The translations under genes and the position numbers were made by a program. 64,000 bases of DNA from a virus. The stretch lies in the IMG/VR virus record IMGVR_UViG_3300037264_003921, positions 61,264 through 125,263 of that record; one strand, written 5' to 3'. Position 1 is the first letter of the stretch, and the number at the start of each line of letters is the position of its first letter. Under the pieces are notes generated by a model that saw only the letters and a list, made by a program, of their open reading frames with translations, made no database searches and was not told the DNA's origin. Positions 3,115 to 61,443 of the stretch are shown here, piece by piece.

Positions 3115-5958
3115 TTATACTGTACTGGCACCAACAACGACCCCAGCCGCTGCAAGGACTTCTTCAGCAGCAAAACTCTGCTCTGTACGTAGAATCACCA
3201 AATTCAACACGATGAATTCAGCAGCGCGTGTTGGCTTTAGAAGAATTGCCACATGAAGTTCGTTTCTATCAATGCGTTCAGGCGTGTTATTAGTCGAATC
3301 GCATATTACCTTAAATGCCTGCAATCCCCTACGCGCCATTATATCTTCAAGGAATGGGGTTATAGCAGACCTTACTTCTGCAAACAATAGCTTGTCTATC
3401 GGCTCAAACAAGAAGAATCTCAATAGGCGAACAAGATTCTTCTTTAAGAATATCAATAACATACGCACATTTACTCGATCAAGAGCCGTCTGACGACGTT
3501 GTAGTGTTCTCTGTCCGAAAACCGTAATGCCATCCTGTGGGAATTTAACTATTGGATTGACAGCGTTGCCACTACCATACAATAGATCACGTTCACCTTG
3601 TGTAGCATTAAATTCAACATCAAGAGCTGTCAATAAATGGCCTCTCTGTAATCCTGCTGGAGCAAACCACTGCTCACGCTCTCTTGCAGTTCTTGCAAAG
3701 ACACTGGCCGCAAATCCTGATGGCGGAACGAATAATTCCTCACCTGAGAATTGGTTGAAGATCTTCAGCCATGGCCAATATAATGCGCCATAACTAGAAT
3801 TAATAGCCGCAGAAAGGTCACTAAGCAGCATACCGTTATGCCAATCAACAGCCTGTTGTGGCCTCAAGCCAAACGGACTATCAACTAGATAAAGCATATC
3901 CCCACGGCCTTCACACAACTGGAGTGCCTGACCAATTACAGAGCCAGAGCTTACACCAGGAATGCATAGCAAATTAGTGTCGAATACTTCAGGATTCTGG
4001 AATGCAAATAAGCCAGTGGAAGTAGCTGGATTGCCAATTATGGCACGATCAAGCTCTGAACTAAATACTGGATCCGTTGGAATACCATTAGCCTGGCCAG
4101 AGAATATTCTATTCGTAACAGGCGTTGGGTTACGGACCTCAAAGCTTGGATCAGATGGATCATTATTCAAATATGATGGACGTGCTTCCCATTCAACAAA
4201 TGGGTTACCATTTACACCACCTAACGTGCTTCCTGCATTCAGGACGTTGGCAAGGTATCTAGCTTCACTTGAATCGAAGCTGAGATCGTCTACCCTATCA
4301 ACCTCAACACCGCTCTGGAACACTCTAATTGAATATCTGTCACCAATACTATTAAACAATTCAACGGTCACCCTTAGTGGGTCTACCCATGTTCCTGGAG
4401 TCTTAGCAACTAGGAATCCAACTATATTTTCATAATATGAAGTATCAGCCTCGCATGTATCACTTGCTGGATCAAGCTCACAGCTTAATGGTATTGATGG
4501 TGTTACTGTGCCAGGTGCTGGTAATGAAACACGTGGATCAGAGAATCCACGGTAATTTCTAGTATACGGGAATGGAATGTCAAGCTCTTCAGCAAACTTT
4601 AAAGTTTTAATATATGAGAAGGTTGCTTGTATCTTCAAAATTGCCAATTTTACGTCATCAGATGAAATTATAACAACTCTCGACTCACCATCTGCAACTT
4701 GCAATGCGAAACTGTCATAATAACGGTTCCCAGCCTTGACGCCGCCAAGATTCAACGCATCAGAAACTTCAGTGGTGTCAAGAGTACCATTTGGAATAGA
4801 CATTTCAAGATCAACAGTTGCATCAACACCTATCGATGAAATCCTGACACGATTGTTCGCGTTATTGATTATATATGGACCAGGATCATTACTTAACAAA
4901 TAGCTTCTTGGAATATCAAACACAAATTGTGAAACGCCAACTTCGAGAGCCCATGCTTCAATAGCCATTAGTTGTATACGATCGCCAGCTAGCTTTGTTA
5001 CTATTTCAGGGATTCCGCCAACATTTTGGGCAAGATAGTCTTCACCGCTACCGACCAATACATTGAATGCATCAACAAACGTATCGGTGTCTGTGAATGA
5101 TACTGTACCAAAAGAAAAACTTGGTGCTGCGCCACCTTGGACTGAAAAAGAGAAAGTTCTATTATCAGGACGAGTCTTAAACGAGAATGAATCATCAAGC
5201 TCAAGCGGGTTCGACCCAGTAACAACTATAGCAAATATTAACCCACAATCATTATCGCCAGTGCCAACCAATATTGGTTCTGAAGTGCCCAACGTACCAC
5301 TTTCTACAACGGCCCCTGAATTTGTCGTCACTCCATCACTGTTTCTGACTATCTCAAATCTAGCATCATCCATCACCGATCCACTGCTAGGAGGTGGAGC
5401 CTGAGTGATTAATACAGTAAAACTATCATCAATAGCATCTAAATAAGTGTCACTCAAACCAGCGCCGGTAAAATCTAATGTCGCAACAGTGATTTCTGAT
5501 CCGCCATCGATATCAGTAAAACTTATATCGAATACAGAGCCATCATGGAATTCAAAAGGTGCATCAGCACTTGGTGTACGAAGCAATATGCGGCCATGAT
5601 CAATACCTTTAAACAATGGGATACGACCCCATCCTTCAATTTTTAAACCACTCGTATCAATAGCGATGGCGGCAAGCTCATCTGGCTGGCCATCCTCGGC
5701 TTCAACACCTACTCGCAATATATATGCTTGATTGCCTTCTTCCATATAGTTAAGAACAGCGAATCCAAGAGAAGATTCTCTTATTGGCTCTCCAAATGTA
5801 TCGATGAACTGCTGAGAATTTGACACAAATGTTGGGGTATTTACTGGACCTTTTTTGGCTGTTCCAATAAATACTGGCCTAAGCGGCCCAACTGCTGTTG
5901 GCAGTGCACTGAGGTCTATCTCTCGTGGAAAAACTCCCGGGGAAAGGAAAACCGCCAT
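3115..5958 (-). CDS. Contractile tail sheath protein (gp18-like)
   Basis: A 947-residue sheath protein, much longer than T4 gp18 (about 660 residues). The N-terminus reads FLSPGVFPREIDLS followed by PVFIGTAKKGP, the usual sheath opening. The C-terminal part has the conserved arginine-rich phrase RQTALDRVNVRMLL and ends in FIVLNLVILR-like strands that in the family mediate subunit linkage. The extra length is in the middle (about residues 100-550) and probably forms surface domains. A clear AGGAG site precedes the ATG. It is followed by a hairpin terminator and then the tube genes, the usual sheath-tube order. Confidence 0.93.
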   Translation of the reverse strand: MAVFLSPGVFPREIDLSALPTAVGPLRPVFIGTAKKGPVNTPTFVSNSQQFIDTFGEPIRESSLGFAVLNYMEEGNQAYILRVGVEAEDGQPDELAAIAIDTSGLKIEGWGRIPLFKGIDHGRILLRTPSADAPFEFHDGSVFDISFTDIDGGSEITVATLDFTGAGLSDTYLDAIDDSFTVLITQAPPPSSGSVMDDARFEIVRNSDGVTTNSGAVVESGTLGTSEPILVGTGDNDCGLIFAIVVTGSNPLELDDSFSFKTRPDNRTFSFSVQGGAAPSFSFGTVSFTDTDTFVDAFNVLVGSGEDYLAQNVGGIPEIVTKLAGDRIQLMAIEAWALEVGVSQFVFDIPRSYLLSNDPGPYIINNANNRVRISSIGVDATVDLEMSIPNGTLDTTEVSDALNLGGVKAGNRYYDSFALQVADGESRVVIISSDDVKLAILKIQATFSYIKTLKFAEELDIPFPYTRNYRGFSDPRVSLPAPGTVTPSIPLSCELDPASDTCEADTSYYENIVGFLVAKTPGTWVDPLRVTVELFNSIGDRYSIRVFQSGVEVDRVDDLSFDSSEARYLANVLNAGSTLGGVNGNPFVEWEARPSYLNNDPSDPSFEVRNPTPVTNRIFSGQANGIPTDPVFSSELDRAIIGNPATSTGLFAFQNPEVFDTNLLCIPGVSSGSVIGQALQLCEGRGDMLYLVDSPFGLRPQQAVDWHNGMLLSDLSAAINSSYGALYWPWLKIFNQFSGEELFVPPSGFAASVFARTAREREQWFAPAGLQRGHLLTALDVEFNATQGERDLLYGSGNAVNPIVKFPQDGITVFGQRTLQRRQTALDRVNVRMLLIFLKKNLVRLLRFFLFEPIDKLLFAEVRSAITPFLEDIMARRGLQAFKVICDSTNNTPERIDRNELHVAILLKPTRAAEFIVLNLVILRTEQSFAAEEVLAAAGVVVGASTV

Positions 5959-6006
5959 ATTATTCTCCTAATGCTTTATCATCATCATGTGTATATTTGC
6001 AATCAC

Positions 6007-7554
6007 CTATTTTTGCAACCATCTCACATAACGAAGCTTTTCTTTCCCAAGCACCTTATGCATCCCATATTTAATAGCATATTGATTTTCATCTAATTTA
6101 AGCCTAGCTGCATGATCCCACACAGTCTTCTTATGATACCAAGCGTTGTTAGCATCAACATACCAATAGTCAGGCTTTACAAACCCATCAAACTTCCATC
6201 CTGCAGCCCTATAGATTGTCCCTTCATGAGCATAAGTCGTATCGGCAAATGTATAGATCACCTTAACCAATGGCTTGTTACCTTTAATAAATCGTATAGC
6301 CTTTCCCAACAACATAGAAGCTAAATTCTTTTTTTGATATTGTGGATGTATCACAAATCTAGTCAGCTCTAATGCATGTTTAGAAAGTACATTAAGGCGT
6401 TTAGCACTTTGCTCTCTTGTAGGATGAGAGAAAACGGCAGATGCAATAATTTTATTATTCAGCTTAGCAACATATCTAACTGAACCAAATCTGCCAATAT
6501 TAGCCATATAATGGTACTTAGCAAACAAACTTCTTAATTCATCTGTAACATCGGCGCATTCAAATATGATATCACTAAAGTTGAAATCAATGATTTCATA
6601 TGGTTTATTAAGCCCAAGCTTTTCGCGAATAATATTTTCTACAAGTTGTCTACTACGGAACTCATAATCCCAAATTGCTAAAAGATCATAATCTTCACCA
6701 AAATAAGTTTTAAGGAATGTTGCTTTTGCATTATCATTAGCTTGTTTGTTCTTTGTATAATGCCAATAGCCTTGGCATTCAATCATCAAATTTTTCTGCA
6801 TCGACCCATGTTTCGGTATCTTGCAGTCGAATATATAGCCAGTAAAACGGCTATTCGTAGTAACAATTGGACCAACAGTGGTTTGAGCACCCTCAGCAAA
6901 GTATGGCACTTTAAGATCATCTAGTATTGAATATAAAGTTGTTTGTAGTGAAGACACTTTATTAGTATGCCACGAAGATAATCTAGCTTTATCCAGCACA
7001 TTGATCATTTTGTTTCTATATTCAGGCGACTGCCAAAGCTCCTTTGAGCGCTTAGAAGCAGCAGCGTAATATTTAGACTCAGATCTAAGCTCATGCTGTC
7101 GTTTGGCATAATCCTTATCAGCCCAAGCTTTTTTGCTGGTGTTACTAATATTCGTTTTGCCTTTATCAGAGCGCCGCCAGTGTAATCTTCGTTCACGCTC
7201 ACTAGCAGAACAATTTTCCCAACTACGTCGCTGGCTATATGCTATTTTACGCTTTATATTATTATTATGGACTTTTGCTGCATAATCAGGATCATCATGC
7301 AAATTAGCAAATTTCTTGCAATATGTCGGGTCCTTATATATTGGATTTGCACGCGACTCAGCTGCAAGTATTGGTTTCAAGCATTTATTGCATACCCATT
7401 GACCAGGCCTACGACGCTTCCTACGCCGATAATTCCCAACAGTTGTGCTTAATACAGCATAGCAAACAGCACATTTTAGTGTCAAATATGCAGCACTATC
7501 CAAAGATGCTGGCTGTTCAATAACCTGCTGATCTACAATGCCTTTAGATTTCAC
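6007..7554 (-). CDS. Fusion of Vsr-like nuclease and Mom-like GNAT domain, copy 1
   Basis: The 515-residue protein has four visible parts. A zinc ribbon is formed by C28/C31 and C55/C58. Residues 110-185 hold repeated helical units of the type W-x-(D/S)-x-(D/E)-Y-(A/R), like NUMOD-type DNA-binding repeats of homing endonucleases. Residues 200-310 look like a PD-(D/E)XK/Vsr-type nuclease (IFDCKIP with D243, LMIECQGYWHY with E259). Residues 345-515 match the phage Mu Mom family: KYHYM, LTRFVIHP, and FADTTYAHEGTIYRAAGW. Mom converts DNA adenine to N6-methylcarbamoyl-adenine in phage Mu. The gene sits between the sheath gene and a small neck-region gene. A second copy is on the plus strand 4.3 kb to the right. 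Single-chain restriction-modification or homing activity is an inference. Confidence 0.8.
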   Translation of the reverse strand: MKSKGIVDQQVIEQPASLDSAAYLTLKCAVCYAVLSTTVGNYRRRKRRRPGQWVCNKCLKPILAAESRANPIYKDPTYCKKFANLHDDPDYAAKVHNNNIKRKIAYSQRRSWENCSASERERRLHWRRSDKGKTNISNTSKKAWADKDYAKRQHELRSESKYYAAASKRSKELWQSPEYRNKMINVLDKARLSSWHTNKVSSLQTTLYSILDDLKVPYFAEGAQTTVGPIVTTNSRFTGYIFDCKIPKHGSMQKNLMIECQGYWHYTKNKQANDNAKATFLKTYFGEDYDLLAIWDYEFRSRQLVENIIREKLGLNKPYEIIDFNFSDIIFECADVTDELRSLFAKYHYMANIGRFGSVRYVAKLNNKIIASAVFSHPTREQSAKRLNVLSKHALELTRFVIHPQYQKKNLASMLLGKAIRFIKGNKPLVKVIYTFADTTYAHEGTIYRAAGWKFDGFVKPDYWYVDANNAWYHKKTVWDHAARLKLDENQYAIKYGMHKVLGKEKLRYVRWLQK

Positions 7555-7561
7555 ACTTTAT

Positions 7562-7831
7562 TTATTCTAAACTTCCTGATACAATCGATATCCTGCCAGC
7601 CTTTTGATGGTTAACAATTTGCTCACGTATCAAACGTGATACTGGAAACTTACCAGTCTTGCCACAATGCAGTATAACTGTCTGTTCGCCAATATAAAAA
7701 TCGACACCATTTGGAGCTCTCAATTGGATCGATACTGGCTGATTAGTAGTCTTATTACATAATGTTACATATGCCAAGCTACTATTTTTAGCCTTTGTGA
7801 TTTCCCTTTGTGTTATTGGTCTCTTTGCCAT
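7562..7831 (-). CDS. Hypothetical protein in the tail/neck operon
   Basis: An 89-residue basic protein (MAKRPITQREITKAK...). The middle reads like a small beta-rich domain (VDFYIGEQTVILHCGKTG). A T-rich run of 20 bases separates it from the gp15-like gene, and an AGG-type site precedes its ATG. It lies among tail-completion genes, so a virion or assembly role is likely, but no family was recognised. Confidence 0.6.
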   Translation of the reverse strand: MAKRPITQREITKAKNSSLAYVTLCNKTTNQPVSIQLRAPNGVDFYIGEQTVILHCGKTGKFPVSRLIREQIVNHQKAGRISIVSGSLE

Positions 7832-7851
7832 CTTATACCTCCAATTTATTT

Positions 7852-8691
7852 TTATTTAGCAGGTTTAAAAAATTCTTCATTTATAACACTTCGTAACGGC
7901 TCAACAGCTTCAAGGAATTTGCCAGTCCTTTCATGCAAAGAAGTAACTTTTCCAAGTACTGTTGGAAGTATTTTTTCCGGCAATGGTAACCACCCTTCCA
8001 TTGTTACAGAAACATCATAACGCACTTTTGCTAATTCCTCAGCACCAATGTCAATATCTGAATTGTCTGTTGAGTCACCAAATCTTAGTTGAACATTACC
8101 ACGTAACCCAGACTCATCATCTATTTTAAATTCAGCCAATGGATGGAATCTAGTCATAATCTGATGCATAATATATTCAACATCACGCTTTCGTTCGGTC
8201 CAGACCGATAGCGTATAATCAATTAAAGCAGGCCATGGACGATATGTTAGTATAATTTTTGAACCATCATCATGGGCGAATCGTCTAGTCATGTTAATAT
8301 GTGGTGGACTAAATTTTTCCACATTGAAACGCCAGCCAGTACGGTTAATTGACATAACTGGCAATTTTATACGTCCAGATCTCAAATCTTGTTGCCATAT
8401 TAATAAGGTTTTATCCCCACCAGCAATCCTTACAGTCAAATCTCGCACTGAATCTTGTGTTGGCACTTTAATGTCTTCAAAATATCTCTTCATTCCAGTA
8501 TCCATTGAATAGAAACCACGCACAAGTACAGATCTAATGTCTTCTGGTTGGTTGAGATTGACATCACTATTAGTTAATTCATCTTTCTCTACTAGGTCTG
8601 GTTGTGTTGGTAGTGTTGATGATATCAACGGAGCTCGCTCTGTAGCTAAGTTCTTATTTGATCGTGGCAAAAATGTGAAGTTGTGAATCAT
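7852..8691 (-). CDS. Tail sheath stabiliser/completion protein (gp15-like)
   Basis: The 279-residue protein resembles T4 gp15, which caps the tail and joins it to the neck. Matches to the family pattern include GFYSMDTGMKRYFEDIKV near residue 60, the PVMSINR segment, and RPWPALIDYTLSVWT followed by IMHQIMTRFHPLAEF, corresponding to the T4 segment in which a structural beta strand precedes EQILPYFQP. The start codon overlaps the stop of the preceding gene (TAATG). It belongs to the coupled gp14-like/unknown/gp15-like run. Confidence 0.72.
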   Translation of the reverse strand: MIHNFTFLPRSNKNLATERAPLISSTLPTQPDLVEKDELTNSDVNLNQPEDIRSVLVRGFYSMDTGMKRYFEDIKVPTQDSVRDLTVRIAGGDKTLLIWQQDLRSGRIKLPVMSINRTGWRFNVEKFSPPHINMTRRFAHDDGSKIILTYRPWPALIDYTLSVWTERKRDVEYIMHQIMTRFHPLAEFKIDDESGLRGNVQLRFGDSTDNSDIDIGAEELAKVRYDVSVTMEGWLPLPEKILPTVLGKVTSLHERTGKFLEAVEPLRSVINEEFFKPAK

Positions 8692-9110
8692 TACTTTGCC
8701 TTCGCTTTCATTCCACCAATACCAAGCGCTTTAATAATACGATTCACATGATCGATGTTTTGCATTTCAACACGAATCTTTTGCCATGGCCTACCACCAT
8801 ATAATTCGTGCATACGGGCTGATTTATCGGCTTCTGTGTTAGGTGGTATATAAACAATCGCACGATCATTAACTATAAGTTTAGTAATAAACTTAGCAAT
8901 TTCAGATGGTTGCATACTATCTAATGGCTGCTTGGTATGTGGATTTTTCAGCGGATAGTACAACTGTTGGACACGTCTAATATAGTCCTCAATGACAGAT
9001 GATTTTACATAATCAGACAATGAATCAATAACAGAGCGACCAGCCCTCATTATGTTGGTCTTAAGCTCTAATTCCAATTCATCGGCATTTTTTACATTTA
9101 TTAACGGCAT
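8691..9110 (-). CDS. Hypothetical neck-region protein
   Basis: A 139-residue, lysine- and arginine-containing protein coupled by overlapping stop and start codons to the gp14-like gene before it and the gp15-like gene after it. The N-terminal 60 residues look helical (DELELELKTNIMRAGRSV) and the C-terminus ends GIGGMKAKAK. Position suggests a head-completion or tail-terminator role, analogous to small connector proteins, but no family is recognised. Confidence 0.65.
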   Translation of the reverse strand: MPLINVKNADELELELKTNIMRAGRSVIDSLSDYVKSSVIEDYIRRVQQLYYPLKNPHTKQPLDSMQPSEIAKFITKLIVNDRAIVYIPPNTEADKSARMHELYGGRPWQKIRVEMQNIDHVNRIIKALGIGGMKAKAK

Positions 9111-9697
9111 TATTTAACTCTAACTTTCAATGTATCGTCACCAGTGATCAATTCACAAATTGCATTGACATATAACCATCTATATTGAAAAAATCCATCT
9201 TCTTTAGAATTCAAAATACGAAACATAAGAGGGCCAGTATCATATGGCGTTGGCAAATTATATGGTGCTTCTATCACATCACCAGGTTGTACCAACCTCT
9301 CATTTATAGACCCATCCATCATTAAACTCGCTCTCGAGAATACAACAGTTATTCTTAATGGTGTATCAACGCCCCATCTTGTTAATTCTGTCATCACTGG
9401 TTCTGGCTTGAAATAAGCTTTCATCTTTTTGCCAGCTCGATATATCGGGTCAGCATCCTCATCCCAAATTTCAAGCTCTTGTGAGTCACCCTTAGGTTCT
9501 TTTATAAATAGTGTAATCCATGCGCCTGAAATATTGATCATTTCTTCAGCTAAACGTTCAGCGTATGCTATATCAGGCTTGCCATGATTATATGTTGATA
9601 ATGGCGTGAATTGTTTTTCAACATCTGAGCGATGGTCTGGAATACTATCTATAGTAACAAATTGTTCACGCATTGCATCAAAGTTGTGTATTGCCAC
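9110..9697 (-). CDS. Neck protein, gp14-like
   Basis: The 195-residue protein follows the pattern of T4 gp14 (256 residues), which with gp13 forms the neck. The matching order is an early TPLSTYNHGKPD segment followed by AERLAEEM, then LTRWGVDTPLRITVVFSR, the (Q/K)PGDVIEAP turn that corresponds to KEGDLIYFP in T4, and GFFQYRWLYVNAICEL near the end. It lacks the C-terminal tail of T4 gp14. The gp13-like partner lies apart, on the plus strand at 13.3 kb. Confidence 0.68.
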   Translation of the reverse strand: MAIHNFDAMREQFVTIDSIPDHRSDVEKQFTPLSTYNHGKPDIAYAERLAEEMINISGAWITLFIKEPKGDSQELEIWDEDADPIYRAGKKMKAYFKPEPVMTELTRWGVDTPLRITVVFSRASLMMDGSINERLVQPGDVIEAPYNLPTPYDTGPLMFRILNSKEDGFFQYRWLYVNAICELITGDDTLKVRVK

Positions 9698-9726
9698 AAA
9701 GTATATTTGGATAGGACTATTTTAAA

Positions 9727-10080
9727 CTATGCTCTAGGTGGTAGATCTTCAGGTGTGATGTTATCAAAATCAATTGTAGTTGGAATTGGATAAGTTGGGT
9801 CATCATTGTTACCAAGGCCGCCATCATACCAACCTGTTGATCCTTTTGTACGAAACACAATCATATCATAGATAAATTTAAATTCAACTTCTGGAAATCT
9901 TTCTATGAGCATTCTGATATCTGGAAAATTAGTAAATCCGCCCATATAACCATGACTATCAAACCTCGTCGAACCAAAAGCATCATTGGCATCAACTAGA
10001 TTTACAAGTTCATCATAAACATTGGCAATCAGATCTTGATTTTCAACAGATTTTATGTCATCTTCTCCCGGAATAGCCAT
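9727..10080 (-). CDS. Hypothetical protein in the neck operon
   Basis: A 117-residue acidic protein (MAIPGEDDIKSVENQD...). It is rich in Gly, Asp and aromatic residues (FDSHGYMGGFTNFPDIRM). The C-terminus is proline-rich. It lies 3 bases downstream of the 409-residue gene and just before the gp14-like gene, so it is probably a virion protein. No family recognised. Confidence 0.65.
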   Translation of the reverse strand: MAIPGEDDIKSVENQDLIANVYDELVNLVDANDAFGSTRFDSHGYMGGFTNFPDIRMLIERFPEVEFKFIYDMIVFRTKGSTGWYDGGLGNNDDPTYPIPTTIDFDNITPEDLPPRA

Positions 10081-10083
10081 TCT

Positions 10084-11313
10084 TTACCTTGTGATATTCT
10101 TTATCCTGCGCTGCACTGATTCAATCATGTTGCTAATATCATCATAATGCAATGAACTGGCAATAGTTGAGGCTTTTGTTAGTTCTGTCGGACTTAACAA
10201 TTCAACATCAAATGGTTCACTAAATCCGGCGTTTTTAACCATATAGTCACTCAATGCCACTTGAACAGGCAATTCATCAACGTCGCCCTCTACAGCTATC
10301 CTTCCAACTGCTGCATCCCACATGCTAGTCAGTTTTATAGGACTCAAATCAATTTGTTTTTGTTGTTGTTGTTTCCCAATGACTGGAGGTGCCTTACCGC
10401 GTTCTTTAGCATACGTAACAATATCATCAAGGCTTAATGTTTTGACAATATCAATAGCTCTTGTAAGATCCGTTGGCTCCATGAGATCAACATTAAATGG
10501 ATATGGAAATCCATGTTTCATAGCAAGACATTCACCAACAAGTGATGCTAGGTGAATATAGCTAGTTCTACCAGCCGCCAATTCTTGCATAGTCGCTTTC
10601 CACCGATCGCGGTTTTCTTCTTTGTGTTTAGCAATTATTGTAGCTCTATCACGCCATCCATCTGGTTCATCAATTTCAACATTTACAGAGATAAACCAAT
10701 TATTATCATGACCTGGCATTATCTTAAACCATCCAGGAGTCGTTGCATCCTTCATAAGCTCATTCCATTTTTTCGTAGCCTCATCTTGATCGTTTCCGAG
10801 TGAGCTTATGACAAATGTCACATCACGTTTTATATCATATCCAGGGGCGTATTCAGCTATTTTAGACAGTACGCCCCTAAATTTCATACCAGTCATTTTT
10901 TGATGTGTAACACTTTCACCATATTTTCTTACTCTTTTGCCATGAGGCTTTAACTGACCATATGGCACTTTTAAGTCGCCAAATCCTTTATATGCCATTG
11001 GATTAAGATTAGATTCACGTAAGAATCCCCATAACCAATCAACAAACGATATCCATGGTGGAGGATTGCTCATGCCAGTCGCTGATAATCCAGGCAATCC
11101 AATAATTTTCCATGCCCCAACATCCTCATCACCTTCAGCACCAAATCCAGTGGCTTCTCTCGACATAGCTTTATCAAAACCATATACACGTAAATATGAT
11201 TCATACTCAGCATGTTTACCAGACAATACTTCCATTGCCACTATTGAATGTGGTTGTACACTTTCAAAAAGAATTAACCTAACGGCACGCCTTATATCAT
11301 CAATGGTGCTCAT
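10084..11313 (-). CDS. Hypothetical protein with two C-terminal helical repeats
   Basis: This 409-residue protein starts IDDIRRAVRLILFES, an N-terminal helix of a type common at the start of small T4-like virion-associated proteins. Two related segments of about 28 residues occur near residues 272 and 366 (PFNVDLMEPTDLTRA and PFDVELLSPTELTKA, each followed by an S-L-x-x-D-D-I phrase). A run of five Gln/Lys residues lies between them. An AGGA site 8 bases upstream favours the second of two closely spaced ATGs. The function is unknown; context suggests a structural or packaged protein. Confidence 0.68.
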   Translation of the reverse strand: MSTIDDIRRAVRLILFESVQPHSIVAMEVLSGKHAEYESYLRVYGFDKAMSREATGFGAEGDEDVGAWKIIGLPGLSATGMSNPPPWISFVDWLWGFLRESNLNPMAYKGFGDLKVPYGQLKPHGKRVRKYGESVTHQKMTGMKFRGVLSKIAEYAPGYDIKRDVTFVISSLGNDQDEATKKWNELMKDATTPGWFKIMPGHDNNWFISVNVEIDEPDGWRDRATIIAKHKEENRDRWKATMQELAAGRTSYIHLASLVGECLAMKHGFPYPFNVDLMEPTDLTRAIDIVKTLSLDDIVTYAKERGKAPPVIGKQQQQKQIDLSPIKLTSMWDAAVGRIAVEGDVDELPVQVALSDYMVKNAGFSEPFDVELLSPTELTKASTIASSLHYDDISNMIESVQRRIKNITR

Positions 11314-11687
11314 TAGCATAATCCTATTGGAAACGTATCACATTCACCAGGTTTTGCTGCTGCCGTTGTTGGGGGCTTAGAAGGAGCAGCGTCTCTTAAC
11401 AATTGATAAAAATCATCAATTGACATGCATATATTGCAACCAGGCCTTGTTGGGGGGCCAGCTGGTAAAACAAAAAACAATTTTCTTGGATTACTAAATG
11501 CCTCCAATGTTGCGTCTGGTATCGCCATCAATGCATCACGTAATGTTATAGTAGAAGCATTACAATCCATATTAACAGCCAAAGAGGTAGCAGTAAATCC
11601 AGTCACAGGTTCACATCCAGGAATCGAAATCAAATTTCCTGACATGACCTCCAATTTATTTGCAATATTAATGGTATCGCTAATCAT
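11313..11687 (-). CDS. Hypothetical cysteine-containing protein
   Basis: A 124-residue protein, first gene of the minus-strand virion operon, whose end overlaps the start of the next gene. It contains scattered cysteines (CEPV, DCNA, CNIC, ECDT, GLC) and an Ala/Pro-rich C-terminal stretch. The 170 bases between this gene and the divergent gene at 11858 are AT-rich and must hold promoters for both directions. No family recognised. Confidence 0.6.
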   Translation of the reverse strand: MISDTINIANKLEVMSGNLISIPGCEPVTGFTATSLAVNMDCNASTITLRDALMAIPDATLEAFSNPRKLFFVLPAGPPTRPGCNICMSIDDFYQLLRDAAPSKPPTTAAAKPGECDTFPIGLC

Positions 11688-11857
11688 GTAATATATCTTT
11701 GGTTACAAACACGTTCCACAATATATTATCACAGACATGTCTACGTGCGGCTTCTATCAATAGTAAAAACTGCTGCCGCCTTCAAGAATCGACGAAAGAT
11801 GCATAGAGTAGATTTGAGAGTATAGCTTTATAATTCAAACATAATCAATACATTTAA

Positions 11858-13321
11858 ATGTATTTTATACTTATGGACCTTAGTAATTATAAAACAAACG
11901 ATATAATAGACATACAATGTAATAAATGCAATAAACCATATTCTCGTAAAAAACGTAGTCTAATTAAAGCCATCAAAAAGCATAGAACATTTTTATGTGC
12001 CTCATGTATAATGTACATGCAATCTGATAAATTAAGTTACAGAATTAAACTATTAAATGCTGATCCTGAATGGCACCGCAAAGTATCAGATGGCGTACAT
12101 CGTGCTCACATTGATGGAAAATTTAAAAATAAGTCGGCTATAGTCAAGGATAGATGGAAAACTAATCCAAAATCATTCAATATATCACAATCACCAGAAC
12201 GTTCAGAACATATATCATCTTCATTGAAAAAACATTATAAAGTTAAAGCCAACCGCGATAGAACCTCAACAATAAGCAAAAAATTATGGAAAGATCCAGC
12301 ATATCGAGTTAGACGCGCCATATCTCTAGCAAAATCATGTTCTACCAATGAATACAAATTAAAATTGTCCAATGCCAGTAAAAAGATGTGGAGTGATCCA
12401 AATTACAGAAGGAAAATTCAACAATCAGCCAGCCAAAATACAACAAGCATTTTAGAGGATTTAGCTTTTAATTTAATAAAACAACTAGACCCATCATCTG
12501 AGCAATGGTTTAAACATGGTGGATGGACATTCGATATATATTCGCCAATGATGAATACATTAATAGAAATTAATGGAGACTATTTTCACTCAAAGCCTGA
12601 GACATTAAATAGAGATAAAATCAAAAAGGACTATTTTAATAAAAACTTAGCCAATAAATTTAACCTTGAATATATTAATGAATACGAATTTTATGCTATT
12701 GGCAAACTGAAAGATCGTATTAATAAAATATTCAAAATCACAAATTCGCCATTGCTTGACTTTGAACTGTCAAATGTTGATGTAAAGATGTGTACTGACA
12801 TCAGTAGTAAGACATTTTTAAGTAAATACCATTACTTATCAAAATATCGATACGGTGTCCATATTGGTGCATTTCTTAATAGCGAATTAATTGCCGTAGC
12901 TGTCTTCTCGCCAATAACACGCCAAGAAACAGCTAATCGATTAAAATTATCGTCAAATGAAATCATGGAATTATCTCGTCTATGCATCCATCCACAACGA
13001 CATAAACTCAATTTTGCTAGTTGGTTTATTGCACATGCAACAAAATTATTAAAATCAACAAAAGAATTAAAGGCTTTAATCACCTTTGCCGACACAACAC
13101 TAGGACATGATGGCACAATTTACAAAGCTGCAAATTGGCAGTATGATGGCGACACAAAGCCAACTTACTGGTACATTGATAATAATGGTCATTATTACCA
13201 TAAAAAAAGCATATGGGACCAAGCATCACGTTTAAAAATGACAGAAAATGCGTATGCAGAAAAATTTAGGCTAATTAAAATAAATGGCAAAAAATTACTA
13301 CGCTTCATTAAAAAATTATAA
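11858..13321 (+). CDS. Fusion of Vsr-like nuclease and Mom-like GNAT domain, copy 2
   Basis: A 487-residue paralogue of the fusion at 6007-7554 with the same four parts: zinc ribbon (C21/C24, C47/C50), helical repeats of the type W-x-DP-x-YR near residues 145-190, a PD-(D/E)XK/Vsr-like nuclease (FDIYSP then LIEINGDYFHSKPE), and a C-terminal Mom-like domain (KYHYLSKYRYG, LSRLCIHP, FADTTLGHDGTIYKAANW). The two copies are diverged throughout, so this is not a recent duplication. It lies on the strand opposite copy 1, divergent from the virion operon and just upstream of the gp13-like gene. An internal ATG five codons in is an alternative start. Confidence 0.8.
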   Translation: MYFILMDLSNYKTNDIIDIQCNKCNKPYSRKKRSLIKAIKKHRTFLCASCIMYMQSDKLSYRIKLLNADPEWHRKVSDGVHRAHIDGKFKNKSAIVKDRWKTNPKSFNISQSPERSEHISSSLKKHYKVKANRDRTSTISKKLWKDPAYRVRRAISLAKSCSTNEYKLKLSNASKKMWSDPNYRRKIQQSASQNTTSILEDLAFNLIKQLDPSSEQWFKHGGWTFDIYSPMMNTLIEINGDYFHSKPETLNRDKIKKDYFNKNLANKFNLEYINEYEFYAIGKLKDRINKIFKITNSPLLDFELSNVDVKMCTDISSKTFLSKYHYLSKYRYGVHIGAFLNSELIAVAVFSPITRQETANRLKLSSNEIMELSRLCIHPQRHKLNFASWFIAHATKLLKSTKELKALITFADTTLGHDGTIYKAANWQYDGDTKPTYWYIDNNGHYYHKKSIWDQASRLKMTENAYAEKFRLIKINGKKLLRFIKKL

Positions 13322-13338
13322 CTCAAATTATATAATAG

Positions 13339-14082
13339 ATGGCTATTTTAGGACCAGCACAACTGCCTGTTGTGCTGAAGACAGACAGTAATCCGCTTAA
13401 AATGCATGCCATTAGTCAATTGGGCCACCCGGTGGTCCTTGTTGAACTAATGGAACCGCAGATGGAACAAGTTTTAAGATCAACTGGTGATTGGATAGCT
13501 CAATATTTTCCATTAGAAGAACGTTACGCTTTTTTTATGACACAGCCACTTCAAGCTGAATATCCATTACCTGATGGCGCATATTGGATTAGGAATGTTA
13601 AATGGGACCCAGCTACTACCCGCATTGACGACATCTTCGGTGCAGAATCATTCCTATTCAACATCGGAAATATCTCAGGTATCCAAAATATATTGACAGA
13701 TTACCACCTTCTTCAAGCATATAGAAAGTTTAGCCAAAGAATTTTAGGTAATGAAGGCCAGTGGGAGTTTAAAGTTGAGTCGAATACAATTAGATTGTTC
13801 CCAGTTCCAAAGGGCTCTTTCCCAGTCGTTGTCGAATATCTTCCATCTGTTACCGAATTTAAATCGCCACAAGCACGTGAAATCACATATCGTGCATTTT
13901 TGGCTCGTATGAAAGAAGCACTCGGCCACGCTAGACGCAAATTTGGTGGCATCCCAGGCCCTGATGGATCAACCATCAACTTTGATGGGGAGGCTTTAGT
14001 AAACGAAGGGCGCGAAGAGTATGAGAAAGCTCAACAGGATGCCATCTTACTTGGTGAGCCCTTGGGTCCTTATGTTTGGTAA
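13339..14082 (+). CDS. Neck protein, gp13-like
   Basis: The C-terminal 45 residues align well with T4 gp13: a KFGG-x-PGPDGSTINFDG segment and REEYEKAQQDAILL, then PLGPYVW, corresponding to the SIDGQRILDEAR...LLDPPFG end of the T4 protein. The N-terminal half has the pattern WIAQYFPLEERYAFF and YPLPDGAYWIRNVKW seen in neck proteins. At 247 residues it is shorter than T4 gp13 (309). It is on the plus strand with only the nuclease/Mom-like fusion gene upstream, away from the gp14-like partner gene on the other strand. Confidence 0.78.
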   Translation: MAILGPAQLPVVLKTDSNPLKMHAISQLGHPVVLVELMEPQMEQVLRSTGDWIAQYFPLEERYAFFMTQPLQAEYPLPDGAYWIRNVKWDPATTRIDDIFGAESFLFNIGNISGIQNILTDYHLLQAYRKFSQRILGNEGQWEFKVESNTIRLFPVPKGSFPVVVEYLPSVTEFKSPQAREITYRAFLARMKEALGHARRKFGGIPGPDGSTINFDGEALVNEGREEYEKAQQDAILLGEPLGPYVW

Positions 14083-38210: not shown

Positions 38211-38765
38211 CTATAATAGATTTGGCGTGGGGATGGAGTTGCGAGCGTGGATTAAAAAATCCTCATATGTTCCTTCTGGATGTGTTCTAATCCACTTTTC
38301 AAATCGATTATATAGGATTGTGTTTGGTTGTCGATTAATATAATTGCCTATCGCTCTTGTTGATTTTTTGCGCGGGAGATTACGTAATTGCTTAACATAT
38401 TCTTGTCCTTTAGACTCAAGAGTCACACTTTGTGGGTCATTTAATGAAACTGGTGGCAACTTTACCTTACCATACCATCTTGATAATTTTCTGATTCTAT
38501 TATATATGCGATTCATCAGTTTGAGTTTTCTAAGGTCAAATGGCGTAACCTTAACTAGACCAACATTGTTGAGGTGACATAGTTTGATTTTCTGGGAGGA
38601 TGTTGGCGTGTAATGTTCTTGAAATTCTATACCAACTCTCAAGTCTTGGTAGTAAAAATCTAATCCTAATTTTTGTGGCCAGTCGGGCCTATAATTTACA
38701 AGTAGGGGTGTGGTTGGGAGGAACAGTTTCAGCCATTTAGCTGTCAAATCTTGACCATAGGGCAT
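38211..38765 (-). CDS. Possible PD-(D/E)XK/Vsr-type endonuclease
   Basis: The N-terminal 80 residues contain GLDFYYQDLRVGIEFQEHYT, the LDFxxxxxxxxIEFQ pattern of restriction-endonuclease-fold proteins of the Vsr/DUF559 type, followed by IKLCHLNNVGLVKVTP, a strand that in this fold follows a catalytic lysine. The remaining 100 residues are basic. It may be a free-standing homing or recombination nuclease. It lies directly beside the dyad-rich non-coding region. Confidence 0.55.
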   Translation of the reverse strand: MPYGQDLTAKWLKLFLPTTPLLVNYRPDWPQKLGLDFYYQDLRVGIEFQEHYTPTSSQKIKLCHLNNVGLVKVTPFDLRKLKLMNRIYNRIRKLSRWYGKVKLPPVSLNDPQSVTLESKGQEYVKQLRNLPRKKSTRAIGNYINRQPNTILYNRFEKWIRTHPEGTYEDFLIHARNSIPTPNLL

Positions 38766-42668: not shown

Positions 42669-44078
42669 ATGAACGTTGACGATGATTTAGCTGGAGTAGA
42701 ACTTGCAGCTAAAAAGTATGCTGGACCTAGCGACTTTACACATTTACACACACACAGTCTGTTTTCTACACTTGATGGGGTGTCAACACCTGAACAATAC
42801 ATTAAAAGATGTGCACAAGTCGGCATGAAGAATTTTGCGCTCACAGACCATGGGAGCATGGCAGGTTTGCCAGATGCATATTGGGCTTCGAAAGAACATG
42901 GAATAAAACTGGCGGCAGGTTGTGAGATATATCTAAATGACTTTCATTTAAAAATGAAGGAATATCAAAATAAAGGGATTCAATTAAACACTTTAAAAAT
43001 TACAGATAAAGAATTTGTTGATCGATATCGTCGCAATAGGCATGTCACTGTAATTTGCAAAAACATGACTGGATATAAAAATCTAATCAATATACTGCAT
43101 GATGGCTATGAAATGGGTTTGTATTATAATAAACCAAGAACGTGGTTTGACCAACTTGTTAAATATAAAGAAGGATTAATAATCCTCTCTGGATGTCTAA
43201 ATGGGCCAGTTTGCCATGAATTAAGACTAGGCTCAGAAAAAAGGGACAACAATGATAGCAGTGCTACTGTTTATTATAAGAAGGCCGTTGATTATGTTAA
43301 TAAATTCAAAGGAGCATTTGGTGAGGATTTCTACTTAGAATTGCAAATGCCAGGTGAGTCAATAGCACGAGCAAAAGAAGTATTTTATCAAGTTTCTGCT
43401 ATTTCTCAGAAGACAGGTATAAAAGCTGTGATGACTGGTGATATCCATTATCTTCATCGTGCAGATTTTGAATTACAAAAGGCTATGATGGCTGTTGAGC
43501 AAGGAACAACAGTTGACGACCCAAATCTGTTCCATGTAGATTCAGATGAGGGGTTTTTTAAAACAAGAGCCCAATTCAGACAGACGTTCATAGAACATAG
43601 CTATAACAAATATGATCAAATAGGTTGGTTTGAAAAGTCATGCGACAACACAATGGAAGTTGCTGAGAAATGTAAGCAATTTGAGCCCGATCTGACACCT
43701 AAATTGCCTGAAATACAAGGAGCAGATCAAAAGATTAAACAATTGGTTGCTGAGTCATTAATAAAAAAAGGATTGCATAATAATCAAACTAAATATGTTG
43801 TTGATGGATGTATGGTTACATATGTTGAGCAAGCTAAGATAGAATTAGCGAGAATTATAGAGAAAAAATTTTCATCATACTTTTTAATAACAAGAAATTT
43901 AGTGCATTTCGCTAGGGATAATAAATATGATGTTGGTCCTGCACGTGGTAGTGCTGGCGGTAGTTTAATTTGTTATTTATTGGGGATTCATGAGCTTGAC
44001 CCGCTTTTGTGGGGATTAAGTTTTGATAGATTTTTAAGCCCAAGTAGAGGTGGATTTATGTTGAATGTGAAGATGTAA
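42669..44078 (+). CDS. dnaE: DNA polymerase III alpha (DnaE), N-terminal part
   Basis: The 469-residue protein is the first part of a DnaE-type polymerase. The PHP domain starts HLHTHSLFSTLDG with LTDHGSMAG following. The palm begins after about residue 380 with KKFSSYFLITRNLV, VGPARGSAGGSL (the Gly-rich nucleotide-binding loop of DnaE) and LDPLLWGLSFDRFLSPSRGG. It ends soon after, at NVKM, just before the position of the catalytic Asp pair. The rest of the palm, fingers and C-terminal domains are encoded from 44866 to 47670. Two separate polypeptides must assemble to make an active enzyme. Confidence 0.88.
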   Translation: MNVDDDLAGVELAAKKYAGPSDFTHLHTHSLFSTLDGVSTPEQYIKRCAQVGMKNFALTDHGSMAGLPDAYWASKEHGIKLAAGCEIYLNDFHLKMKEYQNKGIQLNTLKITDKEFVDRYRRNRHVTVICKNMTGYKNLINILHDGYEMGLYYNKPRTWFDQLVKYKEGLIILSGCLNGPVCHELRLGSEKRDNNDSSATVYYKKAVDYVNKFKGAFGEDFYLELQMPGESIARAKEVFYQVSAISQKTGIKAVMTGDIHYLHRADFELQKAMMAVEQGTTVDDPNLFHVDSDEGFFKTRAQFRQTFIEHSYNKYDQIGWFEKSCDNTMEVAEKCKQFEPDLTPKLPEIQGADQKIKQLVAESLIKKGLHNNQTKYVVDGCMVTYVEQAKIELARIIEKKFSSYFLITRNLVHFARDNKYDVGPARGSAGGSLICYLLGIHELDPLLWGLSFDRFLSPSRGGFMLNVKM

Positions 44079-44079
44079 T

Positions 44080-44484
44080 ATGAATGAAATTACTAACGAA
44101 CATATTAAACAACTGGCCGCTGAAGCACAATCCACAACAGCGCTGCTAACTTTATTCACAAGCGGAATGCGCCAGAATGAGAACGAAGAAGTATCGTTGG
44201 TTCCATATTATCTCAAATGGATTGATGTAACAAACATAGCATTAGCTAATATGAGTGAAACTATCGACCAAGATACAAAAAAGAAATTAGCTGATGATTT
44301 AATTGCATTAATGACAATACCATTAAACGGGATGATGCGCGCTATTATTCAACACGCTAATAATAAATCTATAAATCTACCACCAATGCCACAACCATTA
44401 CCAGCAGGAGTTTTTGAGTATAAAAAATGGGCGGTTGATTACATTAAGCAGTCATTAGCGGCTATAAAGGAGCATATAAAATGA
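44080..44484 (+). CDS. Hypothetical protein inserted between the dnaE parts
   Basis: A 134-residue helical protein (MNEITNEHIKQLAAEAQST...) that starts 2 bases after the first dnaE part and overlaps the following gene by 4 bases. A NKSINLPPMPQPLPAG linker precedes the last helix. No nuclease or intron-encoded motif is visible. Function unknown; conserved position beside a polymerase would suggest a replication accessory. Confidence 0.6.
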   Translation: MNEITNEHIKQLAAEAQSTTALLTLFTSGMRQNENEEVSLVPYYLKWIDVTNIALANMSETIDQDTKKKLADDLIALMTIPLNGMMRAIIQHANNKSINLPPMPQPLPAGVFEYKKWAVDYIKQSLAAIKEHIK

Positions 44485-44873
44485 AAATTGAAGGAACAGT
44501 GTATGGATACTCTAATAATGGGAAAACTGCGTTTGGTGTGATGATGGAATGTGGTGATACTAAATATGAAAAAATCATCGCACTAAAATCTGGAAATTTG
44601 AATGTAGCAGAATTGCATGCTGCTGAATACGCATTTAAGTGTATAGCAAATAAGGATTCAGAAGTGTCAATTATGACATGTAATACATACCTGAAGAGGA
44701 TGCTTGATAAGAATGATGAAAAACAATTCAAGTCGAAGCCTGAAAAAAACATTGATTTAGTCAATGCTGTCAGGAATGCTGCCAATGAATTCAAGAATTT
44801 AGTTATAAACATTGGCAAGTCAGATTCTCTACGTAGAATACAAGAGTCAACTAGAGCTTTATGTAATGAATAA
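44481..44873 (+). CDS. RNase HI-fold protein lacking catalytic aspartates
   Basis: The 130-residue protein has the RNase HI outline: TVYGYSNNGKTAFGVM for the first strands, VAELHAAEYAFKC for the Glu-bearing helix, and VSIMTCNTYLKRM for the strand that normally carries TDS. The first Asp is replaced by Tyr-Gly-Tyr and the TDS Asp by Cys, so only the Glu remains. It is probably an inactive, binding-only relative. It overlaps the start of the next dnaE piece. Low-confidence fold assignment. Confidence 0.5.
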   Translation: MKIEGTVYGYSNNGKTAFGVMMECGDTKYEKIIALKSGNLNVAELHAAEYAFKCIANKDSEVSIMTCNTYLKRMLDKNDEKQFKSKPEKNIDLVNAVRNAANEFKNLVINIGKSDSLRRIQESTRALCNE

Positions 44874-45270
44874 CAAATCTAAGAAGCTGATTTCATGGGA
44901 TGAATTAAAAAAAACAGCCATAAGCAAATGTAGTGGTTATTCTCATGAATATTTAAATCGCCTTAAATTTGAGATAATTGAAATCGAAAAACAGGGAGCC
45001 TCAGATTATTGGATAGATATAGCCATATCTGATAGGAAATTCAACGATAATAAAAACGGGCTGGTTTTACCATTTTTGTTAGATGTAACAGATGTTGACC
45101 CAATAAAAAAGCGAACGTTCGTATTAGATAATTCCGGGGTTGAATGTGATATTACAATATTGACACTAGATGACGGTAAAAAAATTACAATACCAAGTAA
45201 ATGCACAATACAAACACCAAATGGGCCAAAATCTGTGATTAGTTTGCAAGTTGGTGATGAACTCGTTTAG
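44866..45270 (+). CDS. dnaE: dnaE second part, fragment a
   Basis: The 134-residue ORF reads ISWDELKKTAISKCSGYS, then EIIEIEKQGASDYWID and NGLVLPFLLDVTDVDPI. I recognise this as the opening of the second polypeptide in phages with split DnaE, which runs directly into a DFPDxDID motif. Here a beta-rich segment (TILTLDDGKKITIPSKC, TPNGPKSVISLQVGDEL) follows and the frame stops. The next pieces are in other frames. Confidence 0.6.
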   Translation: MNNKSKKLISWDELKKTAISKCSGYSHEYLNRLKFEIIEIEKQGASDYWIDIAISDRKFNDNKNGLVLPFLLDVTDVDPIKKRTFVLDNSGVECDITILTLDDGKKITIPSKCTIQTPNGPKSVISLQVGDELV

Positions 45271-45364
45271 CGTCAGTGGCGATGGTAATATTTTGACAAA
45301 TCTGTGGATTGAATTGCCACAGTTACATAAGTCAGTAATAGATTATAAGGACGTTAATGTCTAA
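45257..45364 (+). CDS. dnaE second part, fragment b (35-residue ORF in +1 frame)
   Basis: The ATG lies inside the end of fragment a (overlap 14 bases) and the stop overlaps the start of fragment c. It reads MNSFSVSGDGNILTNL and ends YKDVNV. It contains a short dyad (CTGTGG...CCACAG). It may be a coupled small gene, or the +1-shifted continuation of the region before it. Confidence 0.35.
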   Translation: MNSFSVSGDGNILTNLWIELPQLHKSVIDYKDVNV

Positions 45365-45500
45365 AATTGTTAATATATCAATAGAGAAAGGTAAGTGCCG
45401 GGAAGTTATATCAGATGGATATTCAATCCAAAATGTGAGTGTAATCGGTGTTGGGATTAGTCACATGATTGAATACCAGACTGACTTCCCGGATGTTTGA
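45357..45500 (+). CDS. dnaE second part, fragment c, ending DFPDV
   Basis: A 47-residue ORF (MSKIVNISIEKGKCREV...) whose last residues are MIEYQTDFPDV. In DnaE proteins DFPD(I/V) directly precedes the catalytic Asp-x-Asp. The frame stops with TGA in GTT TGA C, and the next frame continues with GAC ATT GAT (Asp-Ile-Asp). Reading on by a +1 shift would give FPDVDIDLLPG, the conserved motif. Confidence 0.5.
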   Translation: MSKIVNISIEKGKCREVISDGYSIQNVSVIGVGISHMIEYQTDFPDV

Positions 45501-61203: not shown

Positions 61204-61443
61204 ATGAAAAAATATCTGATTTGTTTGACAGCGCTGATTTGTTTGAGTGGATGCTCGAGTCTCGACAAGGTATTTGTAAATGCTGTTGATGCTTCGTATG
61301 TTGATGTAATCCATTCAAGGTATGTTGATTATATAACGAATGACCCAACGATCGATGTGAGTACTAAACTTATCAGAGCCAAAACAGCACATGATCTAAA
61401 AGACCTTATTGAACAAGCGAAAAAGAAGCTAGATAAGGATTAG
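61204..61443 (+). CDS. Lipoprotein 2
   Basis: The 79-residue protein has a signal peptide MKKYLICLTALICLSGCSS with the lipobox LSGC. The mature part of about 60 residues is helical with a Lys/Asp-rich end. It resembles outer-membrane-spanin-sized lipoproteins, but no matching inner-membrane spanin with a long coil was found nearby. Function unknown. Confidence 0.75.
   Translation: MKKYLICLTALICLSGCSSLDKVFVNAVDASYVDVIHSRYVDYITNDPTIDVSTKLIRAKTAHDLKDLIEQAKKKLDKD

Follow-up and report, generated by a model that had tools for sequence, protein, structure and literature searches.

Two genes in a 64,000-nucleotide stretch of viral DNA (the window; positions 61,264 to 125,263 of IMG/VR record IMGVR_UViG_3300037264_003921) are, taken as a whole, probably best explained as free-standing Hef-like homing genes, each encoding a Vsr-like (EDxHD) nuclease fused to a Mom domain that would protect the target. 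For homing itself our confidence is high; the protective role of the Mom domain is a tentative proposal, with prospects slightly short of even. The protein type was already known. Indeed, Mom domains fused to REase-fold endonucleases were reported in jumbo phages in 2021 (Iyer et al., section 3.4.7, PMC7824862), so the suggestion of the initial annotation that this combination might be undescribed was wrong. The homing interpretation and the observation of a nuclease exchange beside a kept Mom domain are added here, and both merit a test.

Domain make-up of the two fusion proteins

The two open reading frames recognized by the initial annotation are present, and the zinc ribbon that it described is found in both products as two CxxC pairs (Table 1). 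In each protein these pairs are followed by basic W-repeats, the nuclease and the C-terminal Mom domain, in that order. ORF1 and ORF2 are 34% identical over 418 aligned columns, the Mom domain being better conserved (44%) than the nuclease (24%). The interval between them (7562-11687) carries phage genes, including one for a tail sheath stabiliser. They are therefore two separate genes, and a single 7-kb element spanning both was ruled out. The GC content of ORF2 is low (31%) and that of ORF1 equals the window level (37%), giving no clear foreign signature for the pair. Around ORF2 and the adjoining adaptor gene, only weak and imperfect inverted repeats were detected.

Table 1. Features of the two fusion genes and of their surroundings (window coordinates).
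Feature	Position	Strand	Remarks
Insertion site A, occupied, between p89 and tail sheath	5959..7561	.	Same gap empty in L004-L008
Tail sheath gene flanking ORF1, probable target neighbourhood	3115..5958	-	
p89, small conserved gene on the other side of ORF1	7562..7831	-	
ORF1, nuclease-Mom fusion gene, GTG start	6007..7554	-	515 aa
ORF1 zinc ribbon, C28xxC31...C55xxC58	7381..7473	-	From sequence
ORF1 W-containing basic repeats (SKKAWADKDYAKR, SKELWQSPEYRNK), presumed DNA-binding region	6955..7245	-	From sequence
ORF1 Vsr-like/EDxHD nuclease domain (D243, E259, H265, D274, K277)	6619..6960	-	
ORF1 Mom/GNAT domain (H348-Y349, E396, R399, N410, D438, G445, Y448, H474)	6010..6540	-	
ORF2, nuclease-Mom fusion gene	11858..13321	+	487 aa
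ORF2 zinc ribbon, C21xxC24...C47xxC50	11918..12007	+	From sequence
ORF2 W-containing basic repeats (SKKLWKDPAYR, SKKMWSDPNYR)	12140..12427	+	From sequence
ORF2 Vsr-like/EDxHD nuclease domain (D226, E237, H244, D253, K256)	12443..12742	+	
ORF2 Mom/GNAT domain (H325-Y326, E371, R374, N385, S388, D412, G419, Y422, H448)	12755..13318	+	
p247, head-tail adaptor Ad2 gene flanking ORF2, probable target neighbourhood	13339..14082	+	

The C-terminal Mom-like GNAT domain proposed initially was confirmed by Pfam PF25680, which matches residues 342-515 of ORF1 (9e-21) and 308-484 of ORF2 (1.4e-28), in both cases far above the curated cut-off. PHROG 1384 ('Mom-like') gave 1e-28 for ORF1 and 5e-33 for ORF2, and PHROG families of homing and HNH endonucleases matched along the full length of the proteins. 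Single-protein scans of viral contigs yielded few relatives, and an alignment had to be used as query. When a profile of 49 relatives was compared with solved structures, adjacent stretches matched I-Bth0305I (PDB 3r3p, 7e-11, profile positions 215-313), in agreement with the Vsr-like nuclease of the initial annotation, and phage Mu Mom (PDB 8bv8, 1e-9). Pfam recognized REase_MTES_1575 in 27 of these 49 relatives and Vsr in four. The repeats had been called NUMOD-like. W-repeats are visible in the sequences, but the label is loose, because the Pfam model NUMOD3 matches only 2/49 relatives; no NUMOD model matches ORF1 or ORF2.

The residues expected at both active sites were then counted in the window's group (n = 51), in freestanding Moms including that of Mu (n = 22) and in classical Hef-like proteins (n = 96). 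With ORF2 numbering, the nuclease positions are nearly invariant in the window's group: D226 and K256 in all 51 sequences, D253 in 49, H244 in 48, and E237 in 48 with D in the other three. The same holds for the Mom domain, where H325, Y326, E371, R374, N385, D412, G419 and Y422 are found in 51/51, H448 in 50 and S388 in 47 (T in four). The Mom signature residues are also present in 22/22 freestanding Moms. Thus, the match to PF25680 and the signature in common with Mu Mom place the C-terminal domains in the Mom family, and the conserved D, E, H and D/K residues are those of a Vsr-like nuclease of the Hef-like/EDxHD type. As in the fusions already reported, Mom is joined to a predicted REase-fold endonuclease in a large phage. 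The Mom domain of ORF1 and ORF2 has the appearance of an intact enzyme that modifies adenine with an acyl-CoA, and its signature residues suggest that it may be catalytically active.

Relation to Hef-like endonucleases and to freestanding Mom

Hef-like homing endonucleases have long been known, and Hef of phage U5 cleaves nrdB (PMC2988022). The profile of the window proteins is co-linear with Hef-like proteins of K64-1, NCTC12673, AR9, PM2 and phiR1-37 across the nuclease and Mom regions (hhalign, 99.8%, 1.4e-29, 270 columns). Moreover, the C-terminus of Hef alone matches freestanding Mom (96%, 4.8e-9). A nuclease followed by a C-terminal GNAT domain is thus common to the window proteins, U5 Hef and the proteins of K64-1, AR9 and Campylobacter and Proteus phages. 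Their genes are also alike in being free-standing or inside other genes, beside conserved phage genes: known Hef-like genes split topoisomerase II or are located inside what is annotated as an RNA polymerase gene in three pieces, next to an ORF labelled group I intron VSR. With I-Bth0305I, the likeness is limited to the nuclease domain, the solved chain (105 aa) carrying no Mom domain. Conversely, Mu Mom has the homologous domain but is freestanding, lacks a nuclease and serves general genome protection.

The window proteins differ from the classical Hef-like group in keeping the Mom signature (HY, N, H). In the 96 classical proteins, three signature positions are altered, mostly Y326 to I/L, N385 to G and H448 to R/Q, so Mom chemistry is dispensable for some Hef. 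That these proteins nevertheless retain the domain would agree with an endonuclease that homes by means of a domesticated GNAT fold, able to bind or distort the target but no longer modifying DNA. For ORF1 and ORF2 we consider this unlikely, since their group keeps the near-invariant signature found in freestanding Moms, Mu included. In addition, a tree of the Mom/GNAT region groups its domains with freestanding Moms (support 99) and apart from Hef, the place of MuMom itself being unsure because of its long branch.

Two further Mom-fused proteins bear on the role of this domain. Those of L057 (3292-5256) and L061 (4107-6059) lack H244 and D253. Their nuclease region, which follows N-terminal helix-turn-helix arrays, displays instead a PD-(D/E)XK-type motif (PDFRLW...VEVK/VEIK). 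Judged from these motifs, the nucleases look like another type rather than dead versions of the first. The Mom site is intact in both proteins despite the different nuclease motif (PDF...ExK). Therefore, Mom seems to be a module with a job of its own, most likely that of protecting the target site.

Insertion sites and patchy presence

The flanking genes were used to find relatives of the window phage. The gap at site A is empty and measures 40-77 bp in L004, L005, L006, L007 and L008, whose sheath genes are 52-77% identical to that of the window. It is occupied by an ORF1-like gene in the window, in L003 (sheath 71%), in L009 and also in L038, a more remote relative (sheath 55%). On the upstream side of the adaptor gene, family members are present in the window, L007, L016 and L023, with the opposite orientation in the last three; L008 carries the end of a family member, and L006 and L009 are empty. 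A third hot spot lies downstream of the sheath gene (L025, L038, L039, L040, L042, L046 and L011). The insertion site is thus empty in close relatives of the window phage. Whole-record searches gave two copies in the record to which the window belongs. Among the other records, three from sister phages (54, 98 and 123 kb) had no family copy, and several held 2 to about 10.

Phylogeny follows the insertion sites. In a nuclease-plus-Mom tree, ORF1, L003 and L038 form a clade located entirely 5' of the sheath gene (support 100/99), and the clade of ORF2, L014, L015 and L032 lies entirely beside the adaptor gene (99/95). Only three site changes are required on this tree, against a mean of 7.3 after shuffling, and 0/200 shuffles were as low. 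Such an association could also arise from vertical inheritance with loss; the argument therefore also needs the absence of the gene from the closest sisters.

These data bear on the two functions between which the initial annotation had hesitated, a selfish mobile gene and a weapon. The former agrees with the patchy pattern of insertion next to the sheath and adaptor genes, the empty sister sites, the site-tracking clades and the homology to Hef. The latter corresponds to single-chain restriction-modification, in which Mom would place its modification widely in phage DNA, leaving unmodified host or competitor DNA to be destroyed by the fused nuclease. This is the published prediction for the Mom-REase fusions of jumbo phages (PMC7824862), which display the same domain combination in the same kind of host phage, and it is compatible with both active sites being intact. 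We found nothing here that supports it, and judge it improbable: the three sister records lack any copy, other records hold up to about 10 divergent copies, several in short gaps beside structural genes, clades follow insertion site, and the N-terminal DNA-binding parts vary. Among PADLOC defence systems, nothing was matched except 'homing endonuclease' (HEase). PA5oct is credited with five momylating enzymes (Iyer et al. 2021, PMC7824862), but profile searches detected two genes in this phage, both annotated as Hef-like homing endonucleases and one of them directly downstream of the sheath gene. The insertion pattern is less well explained by restriction-modification than by homing. A term search found homing endonucleases absent from the text of Iyer et al.; the window case differs from theirs in that homing is indicated by the pattern of insertion, by the empty sites and by clades that follow the site. 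Finally, a chance resemblance of domains or two misjoined proteins can be dismissed, since about 50 relatives on many separate contigs have this architecture, with many E-values below 1e-20.

Several observations were made on the surrounding DNA. ORF2 and p247 lie on the + strand of the window (11858-14082) and the neighbouring structural genes on the - strand; this segment of about 2.2 kb seems to be inverted, because p247 is co-directional with its neighbours in relatives. Inserts of 1.6-2.1 kb with HINT-like (intein-like) ends interrupt p247 near residue 108 in L008 (666-2808), L009 (1973-3579) and L016 (2499-4212). Those of L008 and L009 contain an ORF whose product has a PD-(D/E)XK-type motif, and in L008 this ORF lies on the opposite strand. 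The family member after the sheath gene in L011 (12413-14104) has an in-frame TGA between the zinc ribbon and the remainder, and is probably a decaying copy. Where other phages have homing genes upstream of the adaptor gene, L004 (7568-8982) and L005 (8176-8964) carry other accessory ORFs, glycosyltransferase-like by eye. Within the window, the reading frame of DNA polymerase III alpha seems to be interrupted, ending at 44078 and continuing near 45469. The interval (44079-45469) had no family match, and the end of an ORF inside it (44812-45270) resembles an intein start (CTIQTPNGPKSVISLQVGDELV). A small ORF at 38211-38765 (- strand) has a stretch (GLDFYY...VGIEFQEHY) that, by eye, is similar to the core of a Vsr-like nuclease; a weak HTH match comes after it.

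Proposed homing mechanism and its meaning

As free-standing homing genes, ORF1 and ORF2 would act as follows. The zinc ribbon and W-repeats would recognize a long site within a conserved structural gene or adjoining it, presumably the tail sheath gene for ORF1 and the head-tail adaptor gene for ORF2. The nuclease would then cut gene-free copies of a co-infecting phage, and their repair with the gene-bearing copy as template would pass the gene on. Meanwhile, the Mom domain would modify the target and spare the gene-bearing genome. Modification of the target is proposed because insertion beside the target leaves it intact: with the gene beside, and not inside, conserved coding sequence, its own genome needs some immunity, which the intact Mom domain could plausibly provide.

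Sandegren et al. are said to have found in 2005 that Hef of phage U5 is also able to cut the DNA of its own phage; self-protection would gain no support from this, if the test DNA was native. As a possible immunity based on sequence, fixed differences between gene-bearing and gene-free phages were searched for over the initial 300 nt of the sheath gene, in what is a weak test. Nothing above chance was found there, since the two fixed columns detected are equalled by 21 of the 84 possible triples. With less confidence than for protection in the window proteins, we suggest that there may be a class of homing genes with their own immunity, in which a Mom-type domain marks the homing site, the carrier is spared, and at least two nucleases have been combined with it (the Vsr-like one and the PDF...ExK one of L057 and L061).

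No paper joining Mom-REase fusions with Hef-like homing endonucleases was found in the open-access literature searched. The present analysis links these two groups, the 'restriction-modification' fusions and the homing endonucleases, described separately until now, as one protein family. On this basis, we suggest testing the published interpretation as a weapon against that of homing. If Mom protects the target of its carrier, this would explain how homing genes inserted beside their target spare their own genome.
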